From the NCBI RefSeq assembly GCF_900102215.1, contig NZ_FNBG01000025.1, positions 1 to 64,000 on the forward strand: DNA of 64,000 nucleotides, in the 5' to 3' direction. The notes under the pieces were generated by a model. The model saw only the letters and a list, made by a program, of their open reading frames with translations. It ran no database searches and was not told the origin of the DNA. This DNA comes from Fontibacillus panacisegetis. GTDB taxonomy: Bacteria; Bacillota; Bacilli; Paenibacillales; Paenibacillaceae. This document shows positions 44,300 to 63,873 of the stretch, piece by piece. Position 1 is the first letter of the stretch, and every line of letters starts with the position of its first letter. Both the position numbers and the translations under genes were made by a program.

Positions 44300-45304
44300 T
44301 TGCCTGAGCAATCCAAACCCAACATTTATGGTGGTCAAGCCGTTATAGAAGGCGTTATGTTCGGCGGCAAATATGTTAACGTAACTGCAGTACGCCGCAA
44401 GAACGGAGAGATTACCTTTTTGGAAGTTCCAAAGCAGGATAAAGCATGGGTCAAACGACTTCGCAAAATACCTCTCATCCGCGGTATTGTCAGCATCGTT
44501 GATTCCAGTGCCAAAGGGTCCAAACATTTGAACTATGCAGCCGAAGCTATGGCTGATGATGAGATGGAGCCTGAAGAACGTGCCAAACAACAAGATAAAG
44601 AAGAATCTAAATGGTCGCTGACAATGATTCTGGGCGTCGCAGTTGTAGGTGTTCTCTCTTTTATTGTCGGAAAACTTATTTTTACGCTTGTACCTGCATT
44701 GCTCGAACAATACTTGTTCCAGCATGCATTCAGCAATCAAACTCTGCATTCACTTGTAGAAGGCGTCATCAAGATCGTTCTTTTGCTTTCATATTTATGG
44801 ATTATTTCTCAGACTCCAATTATCAAGCGTTTGTTCCAATATCACGGTGCAGAACATAAAGTTATTACCGCTTATGAAGCAGGCGAAGAGCTAACTCCTA
44901 AAAATGTACAAAAATACAGCCGCCTTCATTATCGCTGTGGCAGCAGTTTTATCATTTTAACGGTCATCGTTGGTATCATTTTATATTCGTTGCCTATTTT
45001 CCATTGGGAAAACGTTTGGGAGCGGATGTACATTCGTATTTTACTTCTCCCAATTGTTATCGGATTGTCCTTTGAGCTGCTTCGTATTACTAATGCAGTT
45101 CGTGAAATCCCTGTACTCAGATTTCTAGGTTATCCAGGACTATGGTTGCAGCTGCTTACTACCAAAGAACCAAATGACGAGCAAGTAGAAGTATCCATCG
45201 CTTCATTCAATCGCATGCTAGAATTGGATGCCAGCCTGGAGGAAAGCAACGGTCTTCTTCTTTCAGAAGCTAGCCATTCTTCTTTAGATCCCGTGAAAGG
45301 ATGA
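44300..45304 (+). CDS. yqhQ: YqhQ family membrane protein (DUF1385)
   Basis: A 334-residue protein with the family signature GGQAVIEGVMFGG and, later, HGAEHKVITAYE. About four membrane helices lie between 115 and 280. The start is TTG 44300, which follows AGGTGAAG; the frame begins at 44189, but the extension has no motif. The last 279 bases, from 45026 on, are repeated at 56274-56552. Function is unknown. Confidence 0.88.
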   Translation: MPEQSKPNIYGGQAVIEGVMFGGKYVNVTAVRRKNGEITFLEVPKQDKAWVKRLRKIPLIRGIVSIVDSSAKGSKHLNYAAEAMADDEMEPEERAKQQDKEESKWSLTMILGVAVVGVLSFIVGKLIFTLVPALLEQYLFQHAFSNQTLHSLVEGVIKIVLLLSYLWIISQTPIIKRLFQYHGAEHKVITAYEAGEELTPKNVQKYSRLHYRCGSSFIILTVIVGIILYSLPIFHWENVWERMYIRILLLPIVIGLSFELLRITNAVREIPVLRFLGYPGLWLQLLTTKEPNDEQVEVSIASFNRMLELDASLEESNGLLLSEASHSSLDPVKG

Positions 45305-45311
45305 TGAAGGC

Positions 45312-45647
45312 ATGAAAAAACAGACCATCATATTTTGGACTGCGATCCTGCTGGCAGCTTTCGCGATATTAGATGGGCTGTTTCTCAGAGGTGGAATCCA
45401 TATGAGTTCCATTCTGGTTCCGGTCCTTATATTCGGGATTGTGTTCCTGCTGTACAAATTTCCACCGAAAAAATATCGAAAGAACAATGCTAAAGTCAAG
45501 GTTAAGCCATCCGCTCGAACAATGGCCAAAGTTGCAGCTGAACGACGCAATCCCACCAATACGACGACTAAACGAAAACATTATCCTTTTCAGGTCATCG
45601 ATGGCCAAAAAGGGAAAAGCGACGACGACTATCCAAAGTACCATTAA
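45312..45647 (+). CDS. Small membrane protein, YqhP-like
   Basis: A 111-residue protein with two membrane helices (about 5-24 and 30-48) and a basic, lysine-rich tail ending in DDDYPKYH. It follows yqhQ by 7 bases, the place of yqhP in B. subtilis and of SA1362-type proteins in other Firmicutes. This copy is intact; a second one at 56560-56896 has a frameshift. Confidence 0.75.
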   Translation: MKKQTIIFWTAILLAAFAILDGLFLRGGIHMSSILVPVLIFGIVFLLYKFPPKKYRKNNAKVKVKPSARTMAKVAAERRNPTNTTTKRKHYPFQVIDGQKGKSDDDYPKYH

Positions 45648-45661
45648 GCATCAATAACATA

Positions 45662-45776
45662 ATTTATTTAGCCTGCTGATACTTTTTGAACTGCGCTTCG
45701 TAATACTGGATGTTCCAGTCTCCGAAGAAGCGATTCCCGGATATTAGACCGGATTCATAAAGCAGCAGGCTTTCTT
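45662..45776 (-). pseudogene. Patatin gene, 3' fragment
   Basis: This stretch equals the last 115 bases of the intact patatin gene (from about 56912 to 57025) with few differences. It is cut off at 45776, where unrelated sequence begins. It is the far end of a patatin copy separated by the island. Confidence 0.85.
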
Positions 45777-46159
45777 TCATCATCGCGTAGATTATCTTTA
45801 AGATAATCAAGAGGAGCTTATGCTACCCTGCAAGAGTTCTACTGGAAAGCGGAGAATAAGAGGAAGTATACGTCGAAGAAATATCGAGGTGACTAGCTTG
45901 AGTTCTAAGCTCATTTAAAGAGCTTGCGCTTGGCATTATCGACATATACCGATCAAATTCAAGGTGTTGGGGATACGGCTTGAAGTTACCTCATGATGTT
46001 AAAGGTAATTTTCTCAAAAGGGTACGAGCACACGAGCGAGATGAGTTTTCGAGAATCAAGATATCAATACCAAAGGGAGCGCTTATAGTTGTATTGATAT
46101 GTACCTAGCTAATATCCACGCTTATTTACCGATTTCAAACTGCGAAAGTTGAGTTAGTT
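45777..46159. other. Left edge of the island, no gene found
   Basis: This segment has stops in all six frames and no ribosome binding site before a useful ORF. A short frame ATLQEFYWKAENKRKYTSKK is odd but has no support. It is likely degenerate sequence at the junction between the repeated patatin end and the ABC gene. Confidence 0.45.
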
Positions 46160-47851
46160 TTAAACATTCTGTAGTAAATTTAATTCGTTAGTTTCTATTC
46201 TCTTGTTCATTACACTACATTCAATTATTGGAACATTAAACTTAAAATTTTCATGAGTAGCCAATAAAACAATAGCATTTGCCGAAATTTCTTCAATTAT
46301 CCTTAATACATCTTCAATATTTTTTTGATCAATAGCTGAAGTAATTTCATCAAATAAATATACATCGGGATTACTTACAATTGCTCTCGCAAAGCATACC
46401 CGCTGTATTTGTCCTCCAGAGAAGTTTAAACCCTCGTCATTAATCACAGTATCGTATTGATTTGGCAAATTTATGATTAGTTCATGTAAATTTAGGCGTT
46501 TGCATATATTTTCTATATCTTCCAACGGTACATCTCTGTATAAGGATATATTTTCTCGTATTGAAATTGAAAACATGTAGTGGTCTTGTGTGACATAGCT
46601 CACTTTATTTCTTAGGTTCTCTTCACTATAACATTTTAATTCTATACCATTTATTAATATTTCCCCAGTATATTCGTCAATTAATTTAGATAATATATTT
46701 AATAAGGATGTTTTTCCTGAACCACTTGCACCTTTAATAAGATATATATTATTTTTATAGAAATTAATATTTGTATCTTTGAAAACCTCTATGCTGCTTT
46801 GTGTAGTGTGACTTAGATTTTTAATTTCTATTTTTTCAATCTTGTTATATCTTTCTTTGTCATTGACATTCTCAATTTTCCCTATACTTTCAGAATCTAC
46901 TATCTCACCTACCCTACGTAACGAAACAGATACCTGCTGTATTTTAGAGTTAAGTTTTGACAATAGTAATAGGACACCTTTAAATCTGTCTGAATATTCA
47001 TTGAATGCTGTCATCATTCCCAAACTAAGCCTTCCGTTAAATATCAAATATATTGCTAAAATTATATTCAAATTGTTTATCAAAAACGTTACAACACCAA
47101 TGATAACTTGGGTTACTAGTTGAACATTAAACTTCTCTATATTTTTTTCATTAATATCCATAACATTCTTTCTAAACATCTCGTTCCACTTATTTTCAAC
47201 CTTAAAAATTTTTATTGATTTCAATCCTGATAAGGACTCATATAAAAAAGACATAAAAGAATCATGCATTTTTGTATACTCAATCTCTTTTGATTTGATC
47301 ATTCTCCCTGAATATATATATATCATGAATGTAATAGGGAATGTTACTATGGTTACAAGTGTTAGTATTGGACTTATATATACCATAAATATTAAAGAAA
47401 TTATCATACTTATAGTCTGTACTACTAAGTTCATATTATCAAAAAGAATTGAGGAAAAAATTGTCGAATCACTTTCAATGTTATTGACTAATCTCCCTTT
47501 GTCAATTTTATAAACCCTTGAATAAGGCATTTCTAAAATTGAGTTAAACAACTCTTCTTTGATATTGAGTTCGACTGAATAACTAAGCTTAATAATCATT
47601 TTTTGATTTTTGTAATCTAATACAGTAGAAACTACAAAACATAAGAACATGTAAAGTAAATTCATTTTTATTGTATAAAATGATTTACTTACTATACCAT
47701 TAATTATGTTCCCGAAGAATAGAGGGAATGCTAATGATAAAACATTCGACATTATCATGATAGATAATATTAACAATATTGCTCTTTTAGGTATATTCAA
47801 CTTTTTTATAGTATTAAAAAATAGCACAAAATCTTTTTTATAGTCTTTCAT
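46160..47851 (-). CDS. ABC exporter of the RiPP cluster
   Basis: A 563-residue fused ABC transporter: a six-helix membrane domain (about 20-300) and an ATPase domain. The latter has Walker A GASGSGKT at 374-381, the signature NFSGGQ at 476-481, Walker B VYLFDE at 497-502 and the switch histidine H533. The start at ATG 47851 follows GGAGGG. No N-terminal C39 peptidase domain is present, so leader removal would need another enzyme. It is the most AT-rich gene of the island and is the last of the cluster. It would export the modified peptide or act in self-protection. Confidence 0.85.
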   Translation of the reverse strand: MKDYKKDFVLFFNTIKKLNIPKRAILLILSIMIMSNVLSLAFPLFFGNIINGIVSKSFYTIKMNLLYMFLCFVVSTVLDYKNQKMIIKLSYSVELNIKEELFNSILEMPYSRVYKIDKGRLVNNIESDSTIFSSILFDNMNLVVQTISMIISLIFMVYISPILTLVTIVTFPITFMIYIYSGRMIKSKEIEYTKMHDSFMSFLYESLSGLKSIKIFKVENKWNEMFRKNVMDINEKNIEKFNVQLVTQVIIGVVTFLINNLNIILAIYLIFNGRLSLGMMTAFNEYSDRFKGVLLLLSKLNSKIQQVSVSLRRVGEIVDSESIGKIENVNDKERYNKIEKIEIKNLSHTTQSSIEVFKDTNINFYKNNIYLIKGASGSGKTSLLNILSKLIDEYTGEILINGIELKCYSEENLRNKVSYVTQDHYMFSISIRENISLYRDVPLEDIENICKRLNLHELIINLPNQYDTVINDEGLNFSGGQIQRVCFARAIVSNPDVYLFDEITSAIDQKNIEDVLRIIEEISANAIVLLATHENFKFNVPIIECSVMNKRIETNELNLLQNV

Positions 47852-47947
47852 TGTGCTACTTCCCTCCATCTTACACAGTATTCAACTATAGTTTATCGGG
47901 CAGATTGATAGAAAAACTAGCTTACTACTTAGTTGACTTCATTAATT

Positions 47948-49348
47948 TCATTTCTTTACAGCTTGATCAAGCACCGCTTGCGCTTCGGACCTTACTGTTG
48001 CTATTGCTTTATCAATATTTTTTTGTCCTTTTTCCACAAGTTCTAGTTCTCGACTTAATATCATAGCAAAATCGTTGAAAAATTGATCAGGTAGCTTGTA
48101 CCAATCATCACTGTGCCTTAGCCACTTTGATTTCAAATGATAGAAAGGCTCTAAACTGGTTCCTTCATAGTCAGTCATATATCCGGATCGACTTAATAAC
48201 ATTTGCTGACTTAACAACAATTCATTAGATTGGGAGCTGACATGGGCATAATCTTCACCGCACACATACTGAATAAATTCCCATGCTGTATCTTGATTGG
48301 CAGATGCTTTATTAATGGCGAATATATCACCTGGAGTTACAGCATAGGTTGATGTAGGATCAAGGGGATCGACGGGTCCGGCAGCAATACCGAGTTCAAA
48401 GGGTACATTATCTTTCAATTCATGCTTGTAATGATCAATAAATGCTAGCGACAGCACTGATCCCATGTGCATTGCAGAACGCCCCATGAGAAATCGTTGG
48501 CTATCATAAAACTCCTCATTCGTTCCACTGGTGAATAATTCATCCATAGAATTAAAGATAGTTCCCGATTGGTCTGCCTCGATAGCGGTCTGAATCAATT
48601 TCTTCCATGCATCCGTATCAATGGTCATCTTCATCTTATCTGTATTCACAATCGACAACCCTTCAGCCCGGCTCATCTTGTCAATTAGTGTTACTAGATC
48701 TATAGGGGCTTCATACACATCCCCACCGGTATATCCATAAATTCGTGTCTGTTTATCCCCTTCAGTAGGAAAACGACGGGCAAGATCAATGATGTCGTAC
48801 CAACTTATTCCATCAGATGGGAACTCTACACCATATTTCTTGAACAGATCTTTATTATAAAATATAGCACTGCTCTTGAACGTTGGGGCAAGACCATACA
48901 ATCTACCATCGCCAATTTCCCTAAGTTGATCAACGAGACCGGGAACGATCCCATCCAGTTTATAGTTGTCTCTAGTGCAAAGCGAATCAAGTTCGGTAAG
49001 CATCCCATCATTAATATGATTCTGAAACTCGTGAGCATCCAAAATAAAAATATCTGGCTGTTCTTCACGAATAAACTGTGCATACACCTCTTCCTTCGTC
49101 TTATCTCCCATATTCATGTAAATGTCCGCATCACTGATTAATTCCAGTTGGACATGATCATTCAGCGCAGTGAACAAATCTCCATATTGCCGACGGAATA
49201 ATTCCGAATCCTGATAGATGACCTTTAGCGTAGTCGTCTCTTGATTCTCCTTTGGTTCAATCGGACCCTTAGATTCACTTGTACAACCTACTACTACCAG
49301 GCAACTAATAACAAGCAGCGTAAGTACTTGCAACCATGTCTTGTTCAT
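47948..49348 (-). CDS. Lipoprotein solute-binding protein 2 of the cluster
   Basis: A family 1 extracellular solute-binding protein (466 residues). A signal helix leads to a lipobox V-V-G-C, with C22 as lipidation site. The ATG pair at 49351/49348 follows CAGGAG. Mature segments include LYGLAPTFKSSAIFYNKDLF, GDKQTRIYG and ATVRSEAQAVLDQAVKK, typical of sugar-binding members. It resembles its upstream paralogue over its whole length. No permease genes follow, which is unusual. It may bind the exported peptide (immunity or sensing) or a sugar taken up by an unlinked permease. Confidence 0.8.
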   Translation of the reverse strand: MNKTWLQVLTLLVISCLVVVGCTSESKGPIEPKENQETTTLKVIYQDSELFRRQYGDLFTALNDHVQLELISDADIYMNMGDKTKEEVYAQFIREEQPDIFILDAHEFQNHINDGMLTELDSLCTRDNYKLDGIVPGLVDQLREIGDGRLYGLAPTFKSSAIFYNKDLFKKYGVEFPSDGISWYDIIDLARRFPTEGDKQTRIYGYTGGDVYEAPIDLVTLIDKMSRAEGLSIVNTDKMKMTIDTDAWKKLIQTAIEADQSGTIFNSMDELFTSGTNEEFYDSQRFLMGRSAMHMGSVLSLAFIDHYKHELKDNVPFELGIAAGPVDPLDPTSTYAVTPGDIFAINKASANQDTAWEFIQYVCGEDYAHVSSQSNELLLSQQMLLSRSGYMTDYEGTSLEPFYHLKSKWLRHSDDWYKLPDQFFNDFAMILSRELELVEKGQKNIDKAIATVRSEAQAVLDQAVKK

Positions 49349-49383
49349 CATCGACTCCTGTCTCTGCTCAACATGCAGCATAG

Positions 49384-50844
49384 TCATTTAAAAGGTACAG
49401 TCTTGAAATCATCCCAATTGACGGTCATGTCTTCCGTTGCCATGCCTTCGTCCAGTTCTCCCCCCTCATTTTTTTCATTTACTTTCCTAGTAAGGTTCGC
49501 TTCATCAAGGGCAACTTGCGCATCTCGTTGAATCGTCTGTAGTGCGTCATCGAGGGTTTTTCGAGACTCCTCTACTTGGGTCAATTCACGATACGTAATC
49601 TCCTCATATTTTTCTTTGAATTCATCCGTAATAATAATATCATTAGGATCATCATAGTAATTACTTAGCGGCACGGAGGTTAAGTGGTAGAATCCATCTA
49701 GGTTAATTCCATAATAACCGCTTGTTTGACCCATGCGTGAAGGTATTCCATTATCAGGCCTTCTCGCCAATTTGCTTGCAACCTCATCACCCTGCATAAA
49801 CTTCAACAATTCCCATGCAGCATCTACATTAGAGGAATTGGCACGAATCGCATATACATAGTCATTATTCAAGTTCAGATCTCTTGTTATTTCTCGGTTA
49901 GACGTATCCACTGGACCAATTACCATACCTACTCTAAAGGGTTTACCCTCGCCTATATAGTTAAGTACGTCATAGACATAGTTGGGATCATCTAACAACA
50001 TTGCTTGTCGCCCCACAGCAAAAAGTTGCTGTTCATTGAAATCTTCATCCGTGTTATATCCTCCCACGTGGATGGCATTCGTAGATAATGCCGATTGGGC
50101 TTGTTGGTACGCTTGCTTCCAGCTCTCTGTATCCATTGTAACTTGCATTGTATCAAGGTTAACTGCCTTCAATCCCATAGAGAAACCGATCATCAAACCT
50201 AACTGTCTTAGAGGGCTTTCTTTGTCTAACCCGAAACACGTGAATCCACCATATATCTTAGATTGCTCATCTCCATCAGTAGGAAATCGCCCTGCTAACT
50301 CGACAAGTTCTTGCCAAGTCATGCCATCGTGTGGTGGCTCAATATTATATTTATCGAACAGGTCAATATTGTAAAAGATTACTTGTCGCTGGAATGTAGG
50401 CGCAAAACCATACAACTTTCCACCGCCTTGCTCCCTAAGAAAGCTGGTGATTGAAGGATAAATCGTGTCGATATTGTAGTGATCCCGCACCACTAGCGGT
50501 TCAAGATCTAACAAAAACCCTGCTGCTGACAACCGATTATAATCATCAATACTTAGCTGAAGAACATCCAGTTGTTCTTGTTCGATAGACTGTTGGAGAG
50601 CTTGCACATAGTTTGAAGCAGTCTTCTCAAGTTTCATACTTTTGGGTCTAATAAGCTCAATCTTAATCGAACCGTTCTGGGCATGGAACATATCACCATA
50701 TTTATCATTAAAGTATCTTTTTTCTTTGTCGTGATTCATCACCTTCAACTTTGAAACGTTAGGCTCCGGCAAGCTTGTACAACCTGCCAATCCAATCATA
50801 AGTAAACCTATAAGCAGCAAAGATGTTAAATTGAACTTGCTCAA
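49384..50844 (-). CDS. Lipoprotein solute-binding protein 1 of the cluster
   Basis: A 486-residue paralogue of the next gene. I chose the TTG at 50844, which has GGGGG 7 bases upstream and gives a proper lipoprotein signal with lipobox L-A-G-C (C22). The frame runs back to 50967, but this N-terminal part has no ribosome binding site and contains one arm of the inverted repeat, so I consider it non-coding. Segments shared with the paralogue include LYGFAPTF-RQVIFYN, DGMTWQELVELAGRFPTDGD and the RDAQVALDEA end. It lies about 180 bases after the precursor gene, on the same strand. Confidence 0.78.
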   Translation of the reverse strand: MSKFNLTSLLLIGLLMIGLAGCTSLPEPNVSKLKVMNHDKEKRYFNDKYGDMFHAQNGSIKIELIRPKSMKLEKTASNYVQALQQSIEQEQLDVLQLSIDDYNRLSAAGFLLDLEPLVVRDHYNIDTIYPSITSFLREQGGGKLYGFAPTFQRQVIFYNIDLFDKYNIEPPHDGMTWQELVELAGRFPTDGDEQSKIYGGFTCFGLDKESPLRQLGLMIGFSMGLKAVNLDTMQVTMDTESWKQAYQQAQSALSTNAIHVGGYNTDEDFNEQQLFAVGRQAMLLDDPNYVYDVLNYIGEGKPFRVGMVIGPVDTSNREITRDLNLNNDYVYAIRANSSNVDAAWELLKFMQGDEVASKLARRPDNGIPSRMGQTSGYYGINLDGFYHLTSVPLSNYYDDPNDIIITDEFKEKYEEITYRELTQVEESRKTLDDALQTIQRDAQVALDEANLTRKVNEKNEGGELDEGMATEDMTVNWDDFKTVPFK

Positions 50845-50906
50845 GCTGATTCCCCCTATTTGAAAAACTGATTCAACTTTCCCATAAAGCTCTGAAGCAT
50901 GATCAC

Positions 50907-51315
50907 ATGCGAATGTGCGAAGATTGAATGGCTTCATAATGAAATCCAAATTTATCACATCCTCCACTTTACGGGAAAGTCAAATCAAGACTAACTAATA
51001 TACCATGTGACTCTTCGTAATAAATTTAAAACATGTGTTTATTAGATCCGTTAGTGTAATTAGCACTCTGGTTATCTGATTTACTAGAACTCCCAGTACA
51101 ACCACATGAGCATCCGCAGTTTCCCAAGCAAACAAAAGTAGAATCAGCTTGCGACTTAGCATCTATTGTACTGCAGGTACAACCCGCTCTTGGTTGTAAA
51201 TTATTTACTGTTTTCCCAAATGGATTAATAATATTCATGCAATACCCTCCTCTCTATTTTTTTCACGATTGTGGTAAGCATATCGATTTTACGTGGTAGC
51301 TTCGCACATTCGCAT
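50907..51315. repeat. 16-bp inverted repeat enclosing the precursor gene
   Basis: ATGCGAATGTGCGAAG at 50907-50922 on the plus strand is repeated exactly on the minus strand at 51300-51315. The two arms lie on both sides of the precursor ORF (51026-51238). In the minus-strand transcript the arms could pair into a 16-bp stem; equally, they may be two binding sites for a regulator. Confidence 0.75.
51026..51238 (-). CDS. Cys-rich RiPP precursor peptide, 70 aa
   Basis: A short gene behind a strong GGAGGG (spacing about 7). The product has a leader-like start (MNIINPFGKTVNNLQPRA, 1-18) and a cysteine-rich part: C20 and C22, then C37, C41, C43, C45 and C47, seven in all. A Ser/Asn-rich tail follows (49-70) with no cysteine. 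The spacing (C-x-C, then C-x3-C-x-C-x-C-x-C) recalls Clostridium cysteine-rich peptides with radical SAM maturases (CcpM type, from memory). Two such maturases lie directly upstream. It probably becomes a sactipeptide or ranthipeptide with thioether links. Function is unknown; an antimicrobial or signalling role is an inference. Confidence 0.8.
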   Translation of the reverse strand: MNIINPFGKTVNNLQPRAGCTCSTIDAKSQADSTFVCLGNCGCSCGCTGSSSKSDNQSANYTNGSNKHMF

Positions 51316-51345
51316 ATTACGATACTTTCCATTAATCCACGTAAA
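51288..51345. promoter_or_regulatory. 9-bp inverted repeat upstream of the precursor gene
   Basis: TTTACGTGG (51288-51296) and CCACGTAAA (51337-51345) are exact complements 40 bases apart. The pair lies in the maturase-precursor gap, about 50 bases before the precursor start. It may be an operator or a leader-RNA stem that sets the level of precursor relative to maturase. A small hairpin (AGGAAG/CTTCCT, about 51362-51378) just after the maturase could reduce read-through. Confidence 0.5.
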
Positions 51346-51397
51346 TTCGTTTATATATTAAAGGAAGATTGCTTCCTCTAATAACTAGATAACTGTC

Positions 51398-52969
51398 CTA
51401 TCCGTAAAATATTTCATTCAGATACTCTAATGACTCGGGATTCTTTTCTAATATTTCATGATATAATACCAATCTCTGCTCTGTTATGACTCTATATTCT
51501 AAGCATTTTTCGTGCCTGTAGGATATATTAATACCATCACGATCATAACATTGCTTATAGCATAGATGGCATATATTAACAGCCCAACAATCATTACAAT
51601 ATTTTGTTGCTTCATTCATAAAGTCATTAATATAGTGTTTATTAATTTTCTCATAGTCTAAGCCTTCATTTATTGTCCCAATGAAAGGGGATGTTCCCAT
51701 ACGTTCACATATTGCAAGTTCACCATTTACTGTTATATATACTCTCCCCACTCCCGGTGTACAGCATCCATTCATAGGGAATTGTTGAACAGGCTCGTCT
51801 AAGAGCATTCTATTGTGTATACTAGCTAGAGCTTTATCGTAAGAATCTTTTGATATCAGTTTTTGTTTGTCTATATCACTGATTCCAGAGTTTAATTTAT
51901 CTACACTCCATTTTATTAGAGGGTCTATTCTCTGCCTTTTCGTCTCACTTAATTGTCTATCTCCCTCTGTACCAACTCCTAAGTAACTAGTCTTTTCGGG
52001 AGAAGTAATTTGATAGGATGTTGATAGGCTTGACCCGGCTGGTATATGCTCCGAATTCCTAAAGAAATGTTGTATTTCTTCCAACGTCTCTACACTTGTA
52101 TCCGCTAAAACTATGTTATAGTTAATGTTGTCTGCAGCTTTTGCACCCTCAGCTTCCACTAACCTCTTCAAACCATGCATGACGATTTGAAATGATCCGT
52201 TCCCATTACAAAAGACCCTATTTTGATCATGTATTAATTCCGGCCCATCTAAGCTAACTGTTGTAATATGATGCTCCAAAGACGCCCAATAATTAGCTAT
52301 TTCCTCAGTAATCAGCGTTGCGTTCGTCGTCATATTGTATACCACTTTTTTATTGTGAAGCTTTATTTTGCAATACTCTATTGTATCCTTTATGATATCG
52401 AATCGAAGCAAAGGTTCCCCACCGCAAAAAGTGATATAAACATCTTCTTTGGCTGACCTTGACAATATATCCACTGCCTTCTTCGCAGTATCTAAATCAA
52501 TATCCTTAGTTCCAAATGTACGGAATCCTGCTTCCCCTTCATGATAAATGCAATATTTGCACCTTAAATTACAACGTTCTGTTACCTCTAATGAAATTAG
52601 TTTAGTTTGATTACTGGGTGCATCAACATGACTTAACATCTTCTTAACCGGTGGCATCTGTAGTATGCTCTCACTCTTTACTGCTTCTTCTATCTCTTTT
52701 AAACCATTCAACAAATTTTTAGAAGACATCTCTAATTCTAACAATCGATCAAATTCATCCGTATTCCATAGGCATTCTAATATGAGATAGATGTCTTCAT
52801 TGACCATAAGCACTTTTCCAGTACCAGAATCAAAGAAATAATTATTTTCTGAAGTCTTAAAAGGCTTCCCAAGTCGAGAAAATCTCAAATCCTTCTTCAA
52901 ATTGGCAAACAGATCTTTAAAACCAAGAATTTCATTAAAATTCTTCGCTGATTCTACTGAATTCTTCAT
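51398..52969 (-). CDS. Radical SAM/SPASM peptide maturase A
   Basis: A 523-residue radical SAM enzyme. The iron-sulphur motif CNLRCKYC has C133, C137 and C140, and GGEP is at 183-186. A SPASM domain with auxiliary cluster ligands follows: C402/C403, C421, then C458, C461, C467, C470, C474 and C489. The N-terminal 110 residues (SGTGKVLMVNEDIYLILECL) resemble the PqqD-like peptide-recognition segments of such maturases. It starts behind GGAGGG and sits about 160 bases before the precursor gene. It probably forms a thioether between cysteine and another residue. It is a tandem copy of the next gene. Confidence 0.88.
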   Translation of the reverse strand: MKNSVESAKNFNEILGFKDLFANLKKDLRFSRLGKPFKTSENNYFFDSGTGKVLMVNEDIYLILECLWNTDEFDRLLELEMSSKNLLNGLKEIEEAVKSESILQMPPVKKMLSHVDAPSNQTKLISLEVTERCNLRCKYCIYHEGEAGFRTFGTKDIDLDTAKKAVDILSRSAKEDVYITFCGGEPLLRFDIIKDTIEYCKIKLHNKKVVYNMTTNATLITEEIANYWASLEHHITTVSLDGPELIHDQNRVFCNGNGSFQIVMHGLKRLVEAEGAKAADNINYNIVLADTSVETLEEIQHFFRNSEHIPAGSSLSTSYQITSPEKTSYLGVGTEGDRQLSETKRQRIDPLIKWSVDKLNSGISDIDKQKLISKDSYDKALASIHNRMLLDEPVQQFPMNGCCTPGVGRVYITVNGELAICERMGTSPFIGTINEGLDYEKINKHYINDFMNEATKYCNDCWAVNICHLCYKQCYDRDGINISYRHEKCLEYRVITEQRLVLYHEILEKNPESLEYLNEIFYG

Positions 52970-52993
52970 GCAACTCCCTCCAAACTAAATGCC

Positions 52994-54586
52994 TTATATA
53001 TAAGTAAGTTCATTTAGATAAGCTAATGACTCAGGATTTTTTTCTAACATTTCATGGTATAGTACCAATGTCTGTTCTGTTTTAACCCTAGTTAATATGC
53101 ATGATTTATGCCTGTAAGACATATTAATACCATCACTATCATAACACTTAATATAGCATAGATTACATATATTTACAGCCCAACAATCATTACAATATTT
53201 CGTTGCCTCGTTCATAAAGTCAGTAATATAATGTTTATTAATTTTCTCATAGTCTAAGCCTTCATTTACTGTCCCAATAAAAGGTGATGGTCCCAACCGT
53301 TCACATATCGCAAGCTCACCATTTACTGTAATATATAATCTACGTCCCCCCGGTATACAACATCCATTCATAGAGAATGCTTGAGTAGGTTCGCTTATGA
53401 GCATTCTATTGTGTACTCTAGCTAGTTCCTTATCATAAGAATCTTTTGATATTAGTGATTCATTATCTATATCACTCGCACCAGAATTTAATTTGTCTAC
53501 ATTCCACTCTGTTAATGGGTCGAATCCCTTCATTACCGACTCACATAATTGTCTATCTTCCTCTGTACCAACTCCTAAGTAACTCGACTTTTTAGCAGGG
53601 GTATTAAGATAGGATGTTGATATTCTTGACCCAGTTGGTATATGCTCCGAATTCCTAAAGAAATGTTGTATCTCTTCCAACGTTTCCACTCTTGCATCAG
53701 TTACAACGATGTTATAGCCAATATTGACCGCAGCTTTTGCACCCTCAGCTTCCACTAGCCTCTTTAACCCCCGCATGACCGATTTAAAAGATCCCTTCCC
53801 ATCACAATAGACTCTATTTTTATCATGAATCCATTCCGGTCCATCTAAGCTAACCAGTGTAGAATGATGCTCCAACGATGCCCAATAATTAGCTATTTCT
53901 TCTGTCATCAGCGTTGCATTCGTCGTCATATTATAAAATACTTTTTTATTGTGCAGCTTTACTTTGCTATACTCTATTGTATCCCTCATGATATCAAATC
54001 GTAGTAGAGGTTCCCCACCGTAAAAAGTAATATGGACTTCTTCTTTAGTTGATTTTGACAACAGATCCACTGCTTTCTTGCAAGTATCTAAATCAATATC
54101 TCTACTTCCAAATGTACGGAATCCTGCTTCCCCTTCATGATAAATGCAATATTTACACCTTAAATTACAACGTTCTGTCATCTCAAATGTAATATGTTCG
54201 GTTTGAATATTGGGTGCATCCTTATCGTATAAAACTTCACCATCAAAGATATACATCTTCTCAACTGGTGGCATCTGTAATATGTTCTCACTCTTTACAG
54301 CTTCCTCTACTTCTTTTAAGCCATTTAACAATTCCTCAGAAGACATCTCTAGCTCAAACAAACGTTCAAATTCATCAGTATTCCATAAGCATTCTAACAC
54401 GCGATAGGTGTTTTCATTGACCATAAACACTTTTCCAGTGCCGGAATCAAGAAAGTAATTGCAATTTGAAGTTCTGAAAGGTTTGCCTAGTCTAGAAAAT
54501 CTCAACCCCTTCTTCAAATTAACAAATAGCTCCTTGAACTTATGAATTTCATTATGATTTTCTGCTACCTTAACTGAGTTACTCAT
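52994..54586 (-). CDS. Radical SAM/SPASM peptide maturase B
   Basis: A 530-residue paralogue of maturase A, very similar from end to end and 24 bases upstream. The cysteines at 141, 145 and 148 (CNLRCKYC) and the SPASM cysteines are present. It has an insertion after MPPVE (YIFDGEVLYDK, about 112-122) that is absent from A. It begins at ATG 54586 behind GAGGAGG. Having two enzymes for one precursor suggests division of labour or redundancy. The 5' end of the transcript may lie in the AT-rich stretch upstream. Confidence 0.88.
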   Translation of the reverse strand: MSNSVKVAENHNEIHKFKELFVNLKKGLRFSRLGKPFRTSNCNYFLDSGTGKVFMVNENTYRVLECLWNTDEFERLFELEMSSEELLNGLKEVEEAVKSENILQMPPVEKMYIFDGEVLYDKDAPNIQTEHITFEMTERCNLRCKYCIYHEGEAGFRTFGSRDIDLDTCKKAVDLLSKSTKEEVHITFYGGEPLLRFDIMRDTIEYSKVKLHNKKVFYNMTTNATLMTEEIANYWASLEHHSTLVSLDGPEWIHDKNRVYCDGKGSFKSVMRGLKRLVEAEGAKAAVNIGYNIVVTDARVETLEEIQHFFRNSEHIPTGSRISTSYLNTPAKKSSYLGVGTEEDRQLCESVMKGFDPLTEWNVDKLNSGASDIDNESLISKDSYDKELARVHNRMLISEPTQAFSMNGCCIPGGRRLYITVNGELAICERLGPSPFIGTVNEGLDYEKINKHYITDFMNEATKYCNDCWAVNICNLCYIKCYDSDGINMSYRHKSCILTRVKTEQTLVLYHEMLEKNPESLAYLNELTYI

Positions 54587-54589
54587 CAA

Positions 54590-54878
54590 AATTCCTCCTC
54601 GTATTATACTTTCAAGCTATCCTCTGCCACTCTTATCTATAGATTGTCTAGCATGTTAGCCCAAAATCAATAAGTATTCGTGAATAACGAGTTTATGACG
54701 TAAATAGCGTTAATCATGCAATACATATAAATTTACTACTAATGGATAGTCCATATTTATGCATTTAATACATTTTTTAAATCCTGTTAATTAACCAATA
54801 AAAAGGTCCCGTTCGAATTAATCAAAAGATGCTTTCACTATTTGATTCAATAATGTAACCGCATTCAGGAAACGGAAA
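54590..54878. other. AT-rich leader region upstream of the RiPP genes
   Basis: The 289-base stretch has no ORF. It probably holds the promoter for the cluster, since it precedes the first maturase. On the minus strand a weak TTGCAT-17-TCATAA pair occurs. I cannot point to a convincing regulator site. Confidence 0.4.
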
Positions 54879-55127
54879 TTGACATTCCTGAAGGAGCTTT
54901 TGCTCATGGATTCAACGACAATTACCGTTGGAAAGATGCGTCTTCCTTGGGCTCCTAATCATGGCAATCGGGCAGGAATTAAACTGCATGTCGCCTTCTA
55001 TCCTGAATATGGACAACCCCAACAGGTGATTGAAAGTATCGGATCTAAACATGACGGTCCGATAGGCGAGGATCGCAAATCCAGACTTTATTCTGGTTGA
55101 GGATCGGGCATATGGAAAAATCGAGTA
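54879..55127 (+). pseudogene. IS4-type transposase fragment
   Basis: The frame contains MDSTTITVGKMRLPWAP and GIKLHVAF, the region around the first catalytic aspartate of IS4-type DDE transposases. After a frameshift, DFILVEDRAYGKIE follows, ending in TAA at 55125-55127. Neither end of the transposase nor any terminal repeat is left. It is a degraded insertion sequence at the right side of the island. Confidence 0.8.
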
Positions 55128-55650: not shown

Positions 55651-56262
55651 CTACCATTTCGCTGGAATGAAGTTCCTACTATCTATTCTGTGATCCTGAT
55701 CAAACAGCCATAATGGAAAATTGCTTAACAATCCGCCATCAACAATATGCAAAAACTGCTCAGAAAACGGTTTACCTTTAGACAGTTTTGGCGGCAGCCT
55801 CAGCAGCACTGGATCAAAAAAATATGGTATGTTGTAGCTCATTCGCACTGCTCGAGCAACTTCAAAACCTTTCGACTTAATACTGATCCGTTCCAAATCG
55901 TCTGGCAGTACAAGAATTCTGCCACTCGTAATGTCGGAAGCAATAATCCGTAATTTTCCTTTTGGCAAGTTACTAAAAGTACGGATCCCTTTTCTAGTAA
56001 AATGCATAGTGCGAGTCCTATCAAAGTTATATTAAAAAAAGCCGATCTTTTCAAAAAATGCGTGAAAGAAGTGTTCAGGAAAATCCCCTTCATCTCATCA
56101 GCTCTGTATCCCGCCGCAATAAGTGAAGCTACAATTGACCCTGATGATTGTACCCACGACTCGATGAAAGCAGAATCCCTGCTCTTCAGCAGCTCTCACT
56201 GCTCCTGCCAACGAGATTCCTTTAACTCCACCACCCTCAAATACACCATTGATCAACTAATG
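55651..56262 (-). pseudogene. Broken patatin-like gene
   Basis: This is a diverged copy of the intact patatin gene at 56913-57875. It lacks the 3' part (from about 57026 to 57215 in the intact gene), which is found partly on the other side of the island (45662-45776). It has an in-frame 57-base deletion between two AGTAAAA repeats, a one-base loss after it, and an extra base in the GTSSGS nucleophile elbow. All catalytic function is lost. Confidence 0.88.
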
Positions 56263-56273
56263 TGTGAGAACGT

Positions 56274-56552
56274 ATGTACATTCGTATTTTACTTCTCCCA
56301 ATCGTAATCGGCTTATCCTTTGAGCTGCTTCGTATTACTAATGCAGTTCGTGAAATCCCGGTTCTCAGATATCTGGGGTATCCAGGACTATGGCTGCAAT
56401 TGCTCACTACGAAAGAACCAAATGACGAGCAAGTAGAAGTATCCATCGCTTCATTCAATCGCATGCTAGAATTGGATGCCAGCCTGGAGGAAAGCAACGG
56501 TCTTCTTCTTTCAGAAGCTAGCCATTCTTCTTTAGATCCCGTGAAAGGATGA
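56274..56552 (+). pseudogene. yqhQ 3' fragment (second copy)
   Basis: The last 92 codons of yqhQ are repeated here in frame, beginning at MYIRILLLPIVIGLSFELL. The metal- or core-binding motif region (GGQAVIEG and HGAEHK) is missing. Three or so residues differ from the complete gene. It is a by-product of the duplication. Confidence 0.85.
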
Positions 56553-56559
56553 TGAAGGC

Positions 56560-56896
56560 ATGAAAAAACAGACCATCATATTTTGGAACTGCGATCCTGT
56601 TGGCAGCTTTCGCGATATTAGATGGGCTGTTTCTCAGAGGTGGAATCCATATGAGTTCCATTCTGATTCCGGTCCTTATATTCGGGATTGTGTTCCTGCT
56701 GTACAAATTTCCACCGAAAAAATATCGAAAGAACAATGCTAAAGTCAAGGTTAAGCCATCCGCTCGAACAATGGCCAAAGTTGCAGCTGAACGACGCAAT
56801 TCCACCAATACGACGACTAAACGAAAACATTATCCTTTTCAGGTCATCGATGGTCAAAAAGGGAAAAACGATGATGACTATCCAAAGTACCATTAA
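56560..56896 (+). pseudogene. yqhP-like gene, second copy, frameshifted
   Basis: The second copy reads TTTTGGAACTGCG where the first has TTTTGGACTGCG, so the ATG frame goes wrong after about nine codons. Downstream of a TTG at 56600 the old frame is open to the end, so a shortened protein is thinkable but lacks the first helix. I call it a pseudogene. Confidence 0.8.
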
Positions 56897-56912
56897 GCAT
56901 CAATAACATAAT

Positions 56913-57875
56913 TTATTTAGCCTGCTGATACTTTTTGAATTGCGCTTCGTAATACTGAATATTCCAGTCGCCAAAGAAGCGATTACCGGATATTAGACCG
57001 GATTCATAAAGCAGCAGGCTTTCTTCTTGTTCAATATCAAACTGTGTCGTTCCTATTCCCAAGGTTGGAATTTTAACCGTCCGATAGCGATTAAACTGCT
57101 CAATATACCTCTCGTCATGTGCCGATAGCATCGTCTCCACCAGCGCCTGAAGCATTGAAAACGGACCTTTAATAACATAAGGCTGGTTGCCGTTTTTTCC
57201 CACCATTTGAAATCCAACCGTTGGAATGAATTCCCCACTATCCACTCTATGATCGCGGTCAAACAGCCATAGCGGAAAATTACTTAACAGCCCGCCATCA
57301 ACAATATGCAAAAACTGCTCGGAAAATGGCTTGCCTTTAGATTGCTTTGGCGGTAGCCTCAGCAGCACTGGATCAAAGAAATATGGGATGCTGCAGCTCA
57401 TTCGCACTGCACGAGCAACTTCAAAGCTTCCAGGCTTTATGCTGATTCGTTCCAAATCATCCGGCAGCACGAGAATTCTACCACTCGTAATGTCTGAAGC
57501 AATAATCCGCAATTTCCCTGATGGTAAATCACTAAATGTACGTACCCCTTTTTCAAGTAAAATTTGCCTTATCCACTGTTCCAGCGCTTCACCCGAATAT
57601 AGTCCTTTTTTTAGTAAAACGCGCAGCGCCGGTCCAACCATAGCTACATTAAAAAATGCCGATCTCTTCAGAAAATGAGTAAACGAAGTGTTCAGAATGA
57701 TCTTTTTCATCTCCTCAGCTCTGTATCCCGCTGCAATAAGTGAAGCTACGATTGATCCTGAAGATGTACCAGCGACCCGATGAAAGCAGAATCCCTGCTC
57801 TTCAGCCCCTTTTACCGCTCCTGCCAACGATATTCCTTTAACACCACCACCCTCAAATACACCGTTGATTAACAC
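56913..57875 (-). CDS. Patatin-like phospholipase (YqhO-like)
   Basis: A 320-residue lipid acyl hydrolase. The oxyanion motif EGGGVKG is at 8-14, the nucleophile S38 lies in GTSSG (36-40), and VDGG provides the catalytic aspartate. It starts at GTG 57875 behind GGGGG. Its B. subtilis counterpart yqhO also lies beside yqhP and yqhQ. Substrate and role are not known; phospholipid turnover is likely. Confidence 0.88.
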   Translation of the reverse strand: MLINGVFEGGGVKGISLAGAVKGAEEQGFCFHRVAGTSSGSIVASLIAAGYRAEEMKKIILNTSFTHFLKRSAFFNVAMVGPALRVLLKKGLYSGEALEQWIRQILLEKGVRTFSDLPSGKLRIIASDITSGRILVLPDDLERISIKPGSFEVARAVRMSCSIPYFFDPVLLRLPPKQSKGKPFSEQFLHIVDGGLLSNFPLWLFDRDHRVDSGEFIPTVGFQMVGKNGNQPYVIKGPFSMLQALVETMLSAHDERYIEQFNRYRTVKIPTLGIGTTQFDIEQEESLLLYESGLISGNRFFGDWNIQYYEAQFKKYQQAK

Positions 57876-57946: not shown

Positions 57947-59617
57947 TTAGTCATTTACATAATATGATTGCAATAATGGAATGAGTCCTAATGGATTTCT
58001 TCTTAAATCTTTTGCACTGAAAAAAATACTGCCCGATATTTCTGAAATATTTTCGTTATACTTCAGCTGATCAATTATTTCTTGTGCACTGTTCCACCCA
58101 ATTTCAGGTGTACTGATTTTGTATGGCGCATGACCGATGTACAGCTTCACGTTCGTTCCTTTGACTTCGTTCGCCCACCAGTCAGCTAATATGTCGTATC
58201 GAACGATTGTCCGTGTCATGCTCCAATAGATCTGCGGTGTAACATAATCAACCCACTCGTTCTGAATCCACTTGCGCACATCGGCATAGGTACTATCATA
58301 AGCTGAAACGCTTGCCTTGGTATTAGAGCCAGTAACGTCACTAGCCTGATTTCTCCAAACACCATACGGACTAATACCATATGATATGTTTGGTTTCTTC
58401 TGATGAACTGTACCTCCCAGCTTTTGAACAAAGTCATTAATGTTGTCCCTGCGCCAATCTCCTTTATTACTCAGCTTCATGGAATTATATTTGTAAAATG
58501 TACTATCGTCATTAAATTTGCTAGATGCAGTCTCACCTGTCGGATAGAAATAGTCATCCAAATGAACCCCGTCAATATCATATCCGTTAACAACTTCCAT
58601 TATTGCGCTGATTATATGCTCACGAGCTTCCGGTATTCCGGGATTAATGTACAGCTTACCGCCAAACTTCACAATCCAGTCAGGATGTTCATTCGCTACG
58701 TGATTAGCCGGGAGTTTTGTAGTATCCGTGCCCGTGCTAGCTCTGAACGGATTGAACCATGCATGAAATTCCATCCCTCTTCGATGTGTCTCCTCAATCA
58801 AAAATTGAAGTGGATCATATCCAGGATCTTTTCCAGCCGTACCTGTCAGATAGGTTGACCAAGGAACCAGCTTTGAAGGATATATAGCATCAGCTGATGG
58901 CCGTACTTGAACAAATACTGCATTCATGCCCATAGCCTGAACATCATCCAGCAAAGCGATGTACTCCGCCTTCTGAGACTCAATATTGCCATATGATTTA
59001 TTACTAGGCCAATCAAGATTGGATACTGTTGATACCCATACACCCCTCATCTCTTTTTTAGCCGAGGTTCCAGAGCCGTTCTCTCCTGTGGATGGTTTGG
59101 ATGGCTGTGAAGGCTGTGAAGGCTGTGAGGGCTCTGAAGTTGTATCATCCTCACCTCCATTATTCGTTGGTCCCGAGGATACAAGAGTAATTGTCCGAAG
59201 ACTCTGATTCCAAATCACCTGCAATCCTAGCTGTTCACTGACAAAACGAATAGGCACCATCGTGCGGCCATTCACATTTTCAACGGAAACATCCAGACCA
59301 ACTTGTTCTCCGTTTACTTCAGCGGTCTTCTTGCCGATCACAAGAACGAGTGTATTGTTGTCCTTTTGAATAACTGCTGTTTTAGTCTGCTGAGACCACT
59401 CAACCCGCGCTCCCAAACCTTCACTGATTACTCTTAGCGGCACCATCGTTACATTCTCCTTGGGCTTGATGTAAGGTGATGTGTCACTAGGAACTAAAGC
59501 TCCATCCAGATAAATTTGGATTTCCTTCGCTGATGCAGCTCCAGCCTTCGGAGAGCCAACCATCGGGATAATCATCATCATAACAAGAAGAGGAATAAGC
59601 CATGTACGTAATTTCAT
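57947..59617 (-). CDS. Secreted GHL10-type glycoside hydrolase with CuAO-N domain
   Basis: A 556-residue secreted protein. The signal peptide covers about 1-27. A copper-amine-oxidase N-terminal-like domain (about 33-150) follows, which in Paenibacillus often binds cell wall. A PSQPSQPSQPSKPS linker comes next, and a family-10-like hydrolase (DUF187, YngK-type) domain from about 187 (MRGVWVSTVSNLDWPSN) to the end. DGVHLDDYFYP has the acidic residues of the active site. It probably cuts wall or other polysaccharide, but the substrate is not certain. It is a single gene. Confidence 0.88.
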   Translation of the reverse strand: MKLRTWLIPLLVMMMIIPMVGSPKAGAASAKEIQIYLDGALVPSDTSPYIKPKENVTMVPLRVISEGLGARVEWSQQTKTAVIQKDNNTLVLVIGKKTAEVNGEQVGLDVSVENVNGRTMVPIRFVSEQLGLQVIWNQSLRTITLVSSGPTNNGGEDDTTSEPSQPSQPSQPSKPSTGENGSGTSAKKEMRGVWVSTVSNLDWPSNKSYGNIESQKAEYIALLDDVQAMGMNAVFVQVRPSADAIYPSKLVPWSTYLTGTAGKDPGYDPLQFLIEETHRRGMEFHAWFNPFRASTGTDTTKLPANHVANEHPDWIVKFGGKLYINPGIPEAREHIISAIMEVVNGYDIDGVHLDDYFYPTGETASSKFNDDSTFYKYNSMKLSNKGDWRRDNINDFVQKLGGTVHQKKPNISYGISPYGVWRNQASDVTGSNTKASVSAYDSTYADVRKWIQNEWVDYVTPQIYWSMTRTIVRYDILADWWANEVKGTNVKLYIGHAPYKISTPEIGWNSAQEIIDQLKYNENISEISGSIFFSAKDLRRNPLGLIPLLQSYYVND

Positions 59618-59737
59618 CTGTTACCTCCAAAAACTTTTATAATGTAAATTCGTAAAATAACTGCTACTTTATTCTAACGCTAACTTTCATACTAGAGTTG
59701 CGGTTTAATAGAAAAATAGTAAAAAGAACATTAAAAA

Positions 59738-59764
59738 AGCATCTGCCTTTGCTGGGCAGATGCT
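59738..59764 (-). terminator. Terminator of mntR
   Basis: The arms AGCATCTGCC (59738-59747) and GGCAGATGCT (59755-59764) pair exactly around a 7-base loop. On the minus strand six T follow. It lies 5 bases after the mntR stop codon. Confidence 0.85.
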
Positions 59765-59768
59765 CATT

Positions 59769-60194
59769 TTACGATTCACCCAAAAGCTCTTGATGTACGC
59801 CTCTAAGCTCCTCTAATCTGGACTCGTCACGTTTGAAATATTCGATCAAAGTAGCAATGCAAGTAATGGAATCCCAGCTTAAATGATGCTCGATTCCTTC
59901 GACATCCTTATAAATATGATCAGGATCGACACCGATAAGCTCCAGAAATTCCTCTAGAAGCTGGTGGCGATCAACAAGTCGTTTACCTACCTTCTTGCCT
60001 TTACTCGTCAATACTAATCCGCGATACTTTTCATAAATCAAATATTCGTCTTTGTCCAATTTTTGAATCATCTTGGTGACGGAAGACGGATGAACCTCCA
60101 AACCTTCCGCAATATCGGACACCCGGGCATATCCCTTTTCGTCGATCAATTTGTAGATACGCTCCAAATAATCCTCCATACTGGGCGTTGGCAT
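59769..60194 (-). CDS. mntR: Manganese-dependent repressor MntR
   Basis: A 141-residue DtxR/MntR-family regulator. The winged helix has [23 protein letters not shown], and the dimer/metal domain has D-x(4)-E and H residues in [11 protein letters not shown] and [10 protein letters not shown] (known MntR ligands D8, E11, H77, E99, E102, H103). It represses manganese uptake. It stands alone here with its own terminator, and the metal operon nearby looks zinc-type. Confidence 0.93.
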
Positions 60195-60305
60195 CTAATG
60201 ATTACCTCTTTTCAGCTGAGTTGACGCGGAATTCTCTCATGATGATACCGCTACTCTGTTAATGATACATGTTATGCTTGTTCGTTGGCAAGTGTATCGG
60301 TCATT

Positions 60306-61019
60306 CTAAAATTTAAGCCATTCCGGAGTTAACTGCTGCAGCCATATCGTAATTTGCGCCATTTTATTGGTAAATAACAATACCCCCATCAGCAGCATTA
60401 ACGCTCCGCCTACCTTCATCATGATCCCGGAATAACGAAGAATCCATTTCGTAGAACCAATAAAAAAGGCAAGTATAAAAAAAGGCAAAGCAAAGCCAAC
60501 AGTATAAGCAGTAATCATACTAACCCATGTTCCCGGCTCGCTAACCGCCAAGGCAATAATGCTCGCCAGAATAGGGCCCACACAAGGCGACCAGCCTGCA
60601 GAGAACCCTATACCAAAAATAAAGGAACCTATGTATCCAGCTGGCTTAAATTTGAAATTCAGCTTCCTCTCTTTTAATAAAAATTGAGGCTGGAAAATAC
60701 CTAGCAAAAAAAGTCCCATTAAAATAATGAGGATAGCCGAAAGCTGGCGAATAAGGGTCCGATTCTGATTGAAAAAATCACCAAACAGTCCTGCGCCAAA
60801 ACCAAGTGTATAGAACACTACTGAGAATCCAAGGATAAAGGCCAGCGTATGCGTCAAGGTTTTGAATCGTACATCTCTTCTGTTCTGCTCCGTTTTCAAT
60901 GTCTGGACAGACATGCCTGTAATATATGATATATACGACGGATACAGCGGCAAGCAGCAAGGTGAAATGAAGGAAGCCACGCCCGCTCCAAATGCAACCC
61001 ATACATTAATATCGGACAT
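60306..61019 (-). CDS. ccdA: CcdA-type cytochrome c biogenesis protein
   Basis: A 237-residue membrane protein with six helices and the two reactive cysteines in SFISPCCLPLYPSY and SAGWSPCVGPIL. It carries electrons from thioredoxin to extracytoplasmic thiol proteins used for cytochrome c and spore maturation. The start at ATG 61019 has GGGGGT upstream; the GTG at 61031 is less good. It lies 50 bases downstream of the permease gene, so it may be co-transcribed. Confidence 0.92.
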   Translation of the reverse strand: MSDINVWVAFGAGVASFISPCCLPLYPSYISYITGMSVQTLKTEQNRRDVRFKTLTHTLAFILGFSVVFYTLGFGAGLFGDFFNQNRTLIRQLSAILIILMGLFLLGIFQPQFLLKERKLNFKFKPAGYIGSFIFGIGFSAGWSPCVGPILASIIALAVSEPGTWVSMITAYTVGFALPFFILAFFIGSTKWILRYSGIMMKVGGALMLLMGVLLFTNKMAQITIWLQQLTPEWLKF

Positions 61020-61068
61020 AACTACCCCCACAGCATTTATTTATATGTCGACTCAACTATTGCATCAA

Positions 61069-61881: not shown

Positions 61882-61903
61882 CTCCTATAAAATATAGCTT
61901 CCA

Positions 61904-62671: not shown

Positions 62672-62708
62672 ATGGGTCGTCCTTTTCGTTAAGTAAAAAA
62701 TCCTCTCT

Positions 62709-63686: not shown

Positions 63687-63700
63687 CCAGTTCCATCTCC

Positions 63701-63859: not shown

Positions 63860-63873
63860 ATTGCTTCATTTAA

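Follow-up and report, generated by a model that had tools for sequence, protein, structure and literature searches.

A probable RumC-type sactipeptide gene cluster with diverged twin maturases and candidate immunity lipoproteins in Fontibacillus panacisegetis

The window analysed here, a 64,000-nucleotide stretch of the Fontibacillus panacisegetis genome (RefSeq assembly GCF_900102215.1, contig NZ_FNBG01000025.1, positions 1 to 64,000), carries six open reading frames (ORFs) on the minus strand at positions 46160-54589 that have the composition of a radical S-adenosylmethionine (SAM) peptide pathway. Beginning with the first gene of the unit, these encode two radical SAM/SPASM maturases resembling RumMC, designated B (52994..54589) and A (51398..52969), a precursor peptide of 70 amino acids with seven cysteines (51026..51238), two solute-binding-type lipoproteins, SBP1 (49384..50844; 486 amino acids) and SBP2 (47948..49387; 479 amino acids), and an ATP-binding cassette (ABC) exporter with transmembrane and ATPase domains (46160..47869; PF00664 and PF00005). 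An earlier note, made from the sequence alone, had placed six minus-strand genes here and described them as a new radical SAM cluster for a ribosomally synthesized and post-translationally modified peptide (RiPP) within an AT-rich island. All six ORFs were recovered, although the start it gave for maturase B, 54586, is an alternative ATG in the codon following the TTG at 54589 with which the ORF opens. The RiPP assignment is borne out by the gene set, the RumMC family scores and the conserved cysteine-rich precursor, and the island is indeed AT-rich, its genes ranging from 27-41% GC (exporter 27%, maturases 35-36%, precursor 37%, lipoproteins 41%) relative to 43-44% in the surrounding window (stretches 1-44000 and 58000-64000).

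Relatives of these genes were sought in 394 genomes of the Paenibacillaceae, comprising that of the window and 393 others, with a same-genus set of 39 genomes. One member of the same genus (G010) encodes the identical six genes in identical order at a different chromosomal locus (L016 6403-15416), and blastn similarity between the two copies (84-90%) was used to set the extent of the whole unit at 46153..54718. Since this similarity ends on both sides, at 46153 and 54718, and the genes flanking the G010 copy differ from those flanking the window copy, the unit has moved. Recurrence of the full order in G010, together with retention of all precursor cysteines there (7/7), also argues that the six-gene arrangement is not due to chance. 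From these comparisons, the cluster is judged to be real, conserved and to have moved as a unit.

Maturases A and B are tandem duplicates that are 76% identical to each other. The earlier claim that both have complete CxxxCxxC and SPASM cysteine sets was upheld by a motif test, in which the pattern CX3CX2C plus CX13GX4CX36CX2CX5CX2CX18C, as given for RumMC (PMC6779426), was present exactly in both proteins. RumMC (NF035951) was also the best NCBIfam family for each, with 440 bits for A and 464 bits for B, followed by CcpM (TIGR04068; 266 and 258 bits, cut-off 500), whilst the PapB ranthipeptide model (NF047865; cut-off 340) returned 156 and 151 bits, about 300 bits less than RumMC. Scores beneath the respective cut-offs led to rejection of membership in the CcpM and PapB/ranthipeptide maturase families, and the likeness to CcpM systems proposed in the earlier note thus gives way to RumMC. 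The G010 orthologue of maturase B is 84% identical, and according to the maturase tree, A and B had already duplicated when this lineage and that of G010 separated (support 95/95 and 98/97). The ratio of nonsynonymous to synonymous substitution rates (dN/dS) relative to G010 is 0.26 for maturase A and ranges from 0.19-0.26 for the maturases and exporter together; by this measure, both maturases are kept under purifying selection. RumMC-like maturases (E <=1e-70) were detected in 21 of the 394 family genomes, the window's own included, and only the latter and G010 encode two. The window's genome holds no further close maturase, the next match being 33% identical over 161 residues, and searches of a phage collection returned maturase matches at 25-29% only, in six unannotated records.

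The precursor ORF possesses the strong ribosome binding site that had been noted, AGAGGAGGG, and appears to consist of a leader of approximately residues 1-17 and a core with the pattern CxC-x14-CxxxC (C20, C22, C37 and C41) followed by GCxCxC (C43, C45 and C47). The G010 precursor has 56% amino acid identity, with gaps in frame and a dN/dS of 0.66, and the CxC and CxxxC pairs of RumC type seen in the window core are kept. The window precursor aligns with putative sactipeptides of Apre_1838 type. An alignment with 12 relatives revealed common positions at P6, C20, C22, C41, C43, C45 and N60, and a cysteine-rich ORF of 64-88 residues adjoins the maturase in all 20 of the other Paenibacillaceae loci fetched, such that conservation of the 51026-51238 ORF beside similar maturases, on which the earlier note had staked its reading, was found both in G010 and more widely. 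The NCBIfam search that the note had proposed gave RumMC as the best family of the maturases, whereas the precursor remained below the cut-offs of both the Apre_1838 model (detailed below) and the CA_C0660 model (NF035954; 24.4 bits for the window and 34.2 bits for G010, cut-off 60). A solved-structure search with the precursor found no relative.

The closest kin found for the maturases outside G010 lie on two clostridial plasmids. Searching a plasmid collection with maturase A at 1e-40 retrieved three records, from Paraclostridium (53%), Sarcina (51%) and Anaerococcus prevotii (pAPRE01, 40%), the best match within the family, G010 apart, being 45%. The window exporter is 49% identical to that of Sarcina and 47% to that of Paraclostridium over nearly the full length, no other plasmid passing 1e-80; the exporter of the cluster in G016 aligns with it in the ATPase part alone (28%). 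The maturase tree groups the window maturases with Sarcina (93/91), its outer joins being unsure due to several long branches. Annotated peptides of the Apre_1838 family adjoin the maturase in Sarcina and Anaerococcus, and a 'putative bacteriocin precursor' does so in Paraclostridium. On the Sarcina plasmid, an ABC ATPase and two permeases occupy the slot between precursor and exporter. As the maturases carry the RumMC motif and have relatives annotated as Apre_1838 sactipeptide systems on clostridial plasmids, the cluster can no longer be called undescribed.

Systems of this kind have been described previously, among them RumC, an Apre_1838 gene and SacP23 (PMC6779426, PMC3132745, PMC10731318, PMC8172795, PMC8188230). 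Ruminococcin C of Ruminococcus gnavus comprises RumC1-5 with RumMC1 and RumMC2 (PMC6779426, PMC8188230), and two maturases are thus already known in one system (PMC6779426). The thioethers of RumC join Cys22 and Cys24 to residues 31 and 35, Cys45 to residue 53 and Cys41 to residue 61 (PMC6779426), and by analogy two hairpins are expected in the window core. The two systems share a pair of maturases, the exact RumMC motif and the CxC and CxxxC cysteines, yet RumMC1 and RumMC2 are >95% identical, compared with 76% for the window maturases, and RumC has five precursors with four cysteines each rather than one with seven. The RumC cluster additionally has putative proteases, which are absent from the six genes of the window, whilst the two solute-binding lipoproteins are a feature of the window cluster.

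The Apre_1838-type clostridial plasmids, Sarcina sp. JB2 p2 and A. prevotii pAPRE01, along with the similar Paraclostridium unnamed7, resemble the window in their maturases (40-53% identical), a MKxxNPxGR leader and a CxC...CxCxC core, and the exporter lineage is common to the window, Sarcina and Paraclostridium. They differ in having a single maturase, annotated in two pieces in Paraclostridium, and in encoding an ABC ATPase and permeases and/or VanZ without the lipoprotein pair. A mining study of 2011 had already put Apre_1838 itself forward as a structural gene (PMC3132745). SacP23 of Paenibacillus polymyxa, which was active against Gram-positives once moved to B. subtilis (PMC10731318), likewise combines a radical SAM maturase with a cysteine-rich precursor in Paenibacillus, in a CcpM-type cluster. 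Unlike the window, that cluster has a TIGR04068 maturase, TIGR04066/TIGR04069 partners and a subtilisin-like protease, and its published gene table lists no solute-binding lipoprotein (PMC10731318). We therefore assign the window cluster to the RumC/Apre_1838 kind, albeit beneath the formal family cut-offs; the product class is known, and what is new is the presence of two paired lipoproteins and of twin maturases that have diverged. The earlier note had considered the pairing with two such lipoproteins unusual, and this holds insofar as the open-licence literature offered no precedent, with nothing found there that links sactipeptides or bacteriocin immunity to solute-binding lipoproteins of this family.

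The ORF of SBP1 spans 49384-50967 and opens with GTG, but its true start is probably the TTG at 50844, which follows a GGGGG stretch and directly precedes the lipobox LAGC; the lipobox of SBP2 is VVGC. The two lipoproteins are related (37% identical) and both exceed the gathering score of PF01547 (cut-off 26), with 60.4 bits for SBP1, scored on the longer ORF, and 56.4 bits for SBP2. Related lipoproteins occur in 38 of the 39 genomes of the genus at 1e-40, and in the window's own genome ten listed matches to the family lie on one strand within 20 kb (G000:C53:63131-83040). Orthologues of SBP2, at 66-83% identity, were found in nine of the 393 other family genomes, every one belonging to the same genus, a count that leaves out G031 and second copies at 50-52%; SBP1 orthologues were also found in nine other genomes, one being truncated. 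In the plasmid collection, SBP2 at 1e-30 had two matches only, both in Paenibacillus. A 32% relative of SBP2 on a P. urinalis plasmid (L239:3216-9668) lies close to an ABC-F protein and to additional solute-binding proteins. In GC content and kin, the lipoprotein pair is Paenibacillus-like.

In eight genomes (G002, G007, G011, G012, G013, G015, G030 and G034) the lipoprotein pair was isolated, with no maturase or precursor gene within the 19 kb read. Both genes are open in six of these (G012, G030, G002, G013, G007 and G034), with dN/dS of 0.20-0.48 against the window. Five of the eight, namely those other than G011, G012 and G013, have no RumMC-like maturase at 1e-70 genome-wide, and these include G002, G007, G030 and G034 from among the six with open pairs. 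G030 matches window positions 46156-51006 at 91%, a span reaching from immediately after the precursor to where the exporter ends, with both lipoprotein genes open and the exporter disrupted; as the SBP2 tree puts G030 outside the pair formed by the window and G010, it need not represent a recent loss from their lineage. Maturase scraps of 95-117 nucleotides, 74-84% identical, persist near the pair, at a distance of approximately 2 kb in G012 and 5 kb in G013.

The neighbours of the isolated pairs, and of related lipoproteins, follow several patterns. In G002 and G013 the pair is preceded by genes for a regulator, a histidine kinase, an ATPase and an FtsX-type permease, and in G012 by a permease; the families were profile-tested in G002, and we take these neighbours to be of Bce type from their architecture. 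Another branch of maturases (G011 and G016) is found in clusters consisting of a VanZ-like gene, maturase, precursor, exporter, M16-like peptidase and one related lipoprotein, and G178 has the same cluster with the lipoprotein broken. The VanZ assignment was family-tested in G016 and G010, and the M16 peptidase was named by resemblance. Elsewhere in G010 (L095:6603-9053), a VanZ-like gene stands immediately ahead of a lipoprotein that shares 71% identity with the one in the G016 cluster, the locus corresponding to the ends of a G016-type cluster without the maturase, precursor, exporter and peptidase between.

Related lipoproteins were also observed near a second radical SAM locus (L097:5348-6780, and also L096, L101 and L209-L237). 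This encodes a 450-amino-acid radical SAM/SPASM protein resembling TIGR04463 (202 bits, cut-off 525), present in 34 of the 394 family genomes at 1e-120; downstream of this gene lies a 27-31-residue ORF whose product ends in KSVPG(N/S)L(S/K). A simple rule, applied to 30 loci, picked out the small peptide in 18; it was cysteine-free in 16 of those 18 and had no match in NCBIfam. Members of the lipoprotein family lie within the 1.5-kb flanks of all 16 such loci in the window's genus (one upstream and weak) and of none of the 14 in other genera. The locus sits behind ligA, and at L094, L098, L100 and L102 lipoproteins follow ligA without that maturase. Occurrence of the maturase without a lipoprotein in other genera, and of lipoproteins behind ligA without the maturase in this genus, means that the shared neighbourhood may be mere synteny.

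The window genes very probably constitute a sactipeptide cluster; the gene set, RumMC motifs, cysteine-rich precursor, clostridial-lineage exporter and selected twin maturases can be read from the sequence. For the lipoproteins, we lean modestly towards a role in immunity, and the full interpretation, a horizontally acquired RumC-type sactipeptide cluster whose lipoproteins give self-protection, is held by us with a similarly slight preference. The precursor would be translated from its own strong ribosome site, and A and B would install S-to-alpha-carbon thioethers on the core, with C20/C22 and C37/C41 at RumC-like positions; the extra C43, C45 and C47 perhaps require the second, diverged maturase. 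The exporter would then secrete the peptide, and the leader would presumably be removed by a protease encoded outside the cluster, given that no peptidase domain was seen among the Pfam matches of the exporter. Less certainly, SBP1 and SBP2, tethered to the outside of the membrane, may bind the mature product or mask its target, standing in for the separate ABC transporter or VanZ-type genes of sister clusters. This protective role is suggested by the position of the genes, what they replace and who keeps them. Favouring it, the place and order of the lipoproteins are identical in the window's genome and G010 at unrelated loci, and the G011 and G016 clusters each end in a single related lipoprotein, remnants of one being left in G178. 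The ABC transporter genes in the matching slot of the Sarcina plasmid, the pairs that persist without adjacent maturase or precursor genes, the maturase scraps close to two of them, the Bce-like neighbours and the VanZ-lipoprotein locus of G010 count in the same direction. Lantibiotic immunity lipoproteins such as NisI are membrane-anchored, cluster-encoded and protect the producer; here, by comparison, the proteins are of a solute-binding family, the genes are paired, and protection is inferred only.

A number of observations weigh against this interpretation. The maturase scores lie under the equivalog cut-off of RumMC (720), a model that gives just 483 bits (Sarcina) and 465 bits (Anaerococcus) for maturases of annotated Apre_1838 clusters. 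The RumC precursor model (NF035950; cut-off 40 bits) has no match to the window peptide up to E 1, and the Apre_1838 model (TIGR04067; cut-off 45) gives 28.6 bits for the window precursor and 27.8 bits for that of G010. Some isolated lipoprotein copies are decaying, with an in-frame stop in SBP2 of G011 and truncation in G015. Of the eight genomes in which the pair stands isolated, G011, G012 and G013 encode a RumMC-like maturase at some other locus and so may not be non-producers, on account of which our confidence in the interpretation was lowered by a small step. Of the 21 genomes that encode a RumMC-like maturase, 16 showed no family lipoprotein (E 1e-8) in the 17-19 kb read around it. Bce-like permeases occupy 49 places in 27 of the 39 genomes of the genus, and at the 23 examined a family lipoprotein stands directly behind in four (G002, G013, G012 and G001) and is absent in 19, one of which (L203) runs off the contig on the lipoprotein side. 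The 85% orthologue in G024 belongs to these 19, and the genome of the window lacks any match to the Bce-like permease at 1e-40.

The lipoproteins may alternatively capture or sense a peptide, sugar or metal-peptide complex for uptake or signalling through an importer encoded elsewhere, rather than confer protection. Their placement in the sugar-binding family PF01547/PF13416, which also counts against self-protection, is in keeping with this, as is the finding that, among proteins of known structure, SBP2 is best matched by sorbitol binding proteins and those of the trehalose/maltose type. So too is the 32% relative on the P. urinalis plasmid, which divergently adjoins importer-type permeases, a neighbourhood that hints at the parent function of the family. 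However, the six-gene unit encodes no importer permease and none was recognised by eye directly beside the isolated pairs, the pair is retained without adjacent peptide genes, and its slot corresponds to that of a separate ABC transporter in the Sarcina cluster; uptake or signalling is accordingly regarded as rather unlikely.

Somewhat less probable still is that the pair is a bystander, a native Paenibacillus operon adjacent to the point where the foreign maturation genes inserted, the two having moved together since. The GC content of the lipoproteins (41%, against 27% for the exporter and 35-36% for the maturases), the occurrence of the pair alone in eight genomes and the commonness of related lipoproteins in the genus would all fit, but the pair sits between precursor and exporter rather than at an edge, the order holds at two unrelated loci, with pair and exporter at a third, and clusters of another maturase branch likewise end in one such lipoprotein. 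With regard to the product, three cysteines outside the RumC pattern, an odd total of seven and the presence of PapB among the weaker model matches could indicate another thioether or metal-binding peptide, ranthipeptide-like or a cysteine-rich metal ligand, in place of a sactipeptide antibiotic. We consider this very unlikely, in view of the lead of RumMC over PapB, the exact RumMC motif, the RumC-like CxC...CxxxC arrangement and the annotation of kin as sactipeptide bacteriocins.

Two predicted RNA structures surround the precursor. A hairpin lies in its 5' untranslated stretch (51284..51349, minus strand; z -3.5 in the window and -2.1 in G010, where the sequence is conserved), and a long stem-loop lies between the precursor and SBP1 (50868..50988, minus strand; -47.1 kcal/mol, z -5.8), with a 23-pair outer stem that includes some G-U pairs. 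The sequence of the stem-loop is retained in G010 and in G030, the latter without the biosynthetic genes. Across these three sequences, too few for proof of structure, one of 36 pairs is changed on both sides and three are broken in one sequence each. No Rfam family matched these elements up to E 0.5. The stem-loop and 5' hairpin may determine how abundant the precursor message is relative to those downstream. A 28-nucleotide inverted repeat flanks the precursor (50895-50922 / 51300-51327; 82% complementary, 16 exact consecutively), both arms being conserved in G010 and the downstream arm also in G030. An invertible switch was considered and rejected in favour of RNA structure, because the downstream arm sits inside the long stem-loop and the upstream arm inside the 5' hairpin.

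A direct duplication (45011-45776 and 56259-57025; 96% over 767 nucleotides) borders the island on either side and comprises the 3' end of a DUF1385 gene plus the gene that follows. To the right of the island, a diverged and broken copy of a patatin-like gene (84%) is found beside an intact one (55660-56257 and 57219-57873). The arrangement looks like entry of the island by recombination with a diverged homologous segment. A DDE transposase-like fragment (54879-55100; PF01609, 22.4 bits, cut-off 23) lies between the island and the broken patatin copy.

A broader scheme can be put forward tentatively, with rather less confidence than self-protection itself. Solute-binding lipoproteins, members of a family regarded as importer components, may have come to serve Paenibacillus as a means of self-immunity towards radical-SAM peptides, on their own or encoded behind a Bce-type transporter, passing from cluster to cluster and persisting without peptide genes; a foreign clostridial cluster would have been adopted by swapping its protection genes for the native pair, and the duplicated maturase would have taken on the extra cysteines. 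Immunity genes in the sactipeptide literature, as represented by RumC and SacP23, are mostly named by prediction (PMC6779426, PMC10731318), and a mutational study of subtilosin is cited. Presence of the lipoprotein pair in the cluster, and its open state in six genomes without adjacent peptide genes, makes an immunity role directly testable here. The diverged maturase pair likewise provides a natural case for asking whether each enzyme installs its own bridges. If true, the immunity role would give a use to a much expanded Paenibacillus lipoprotein family currently classed as sugar-binding.

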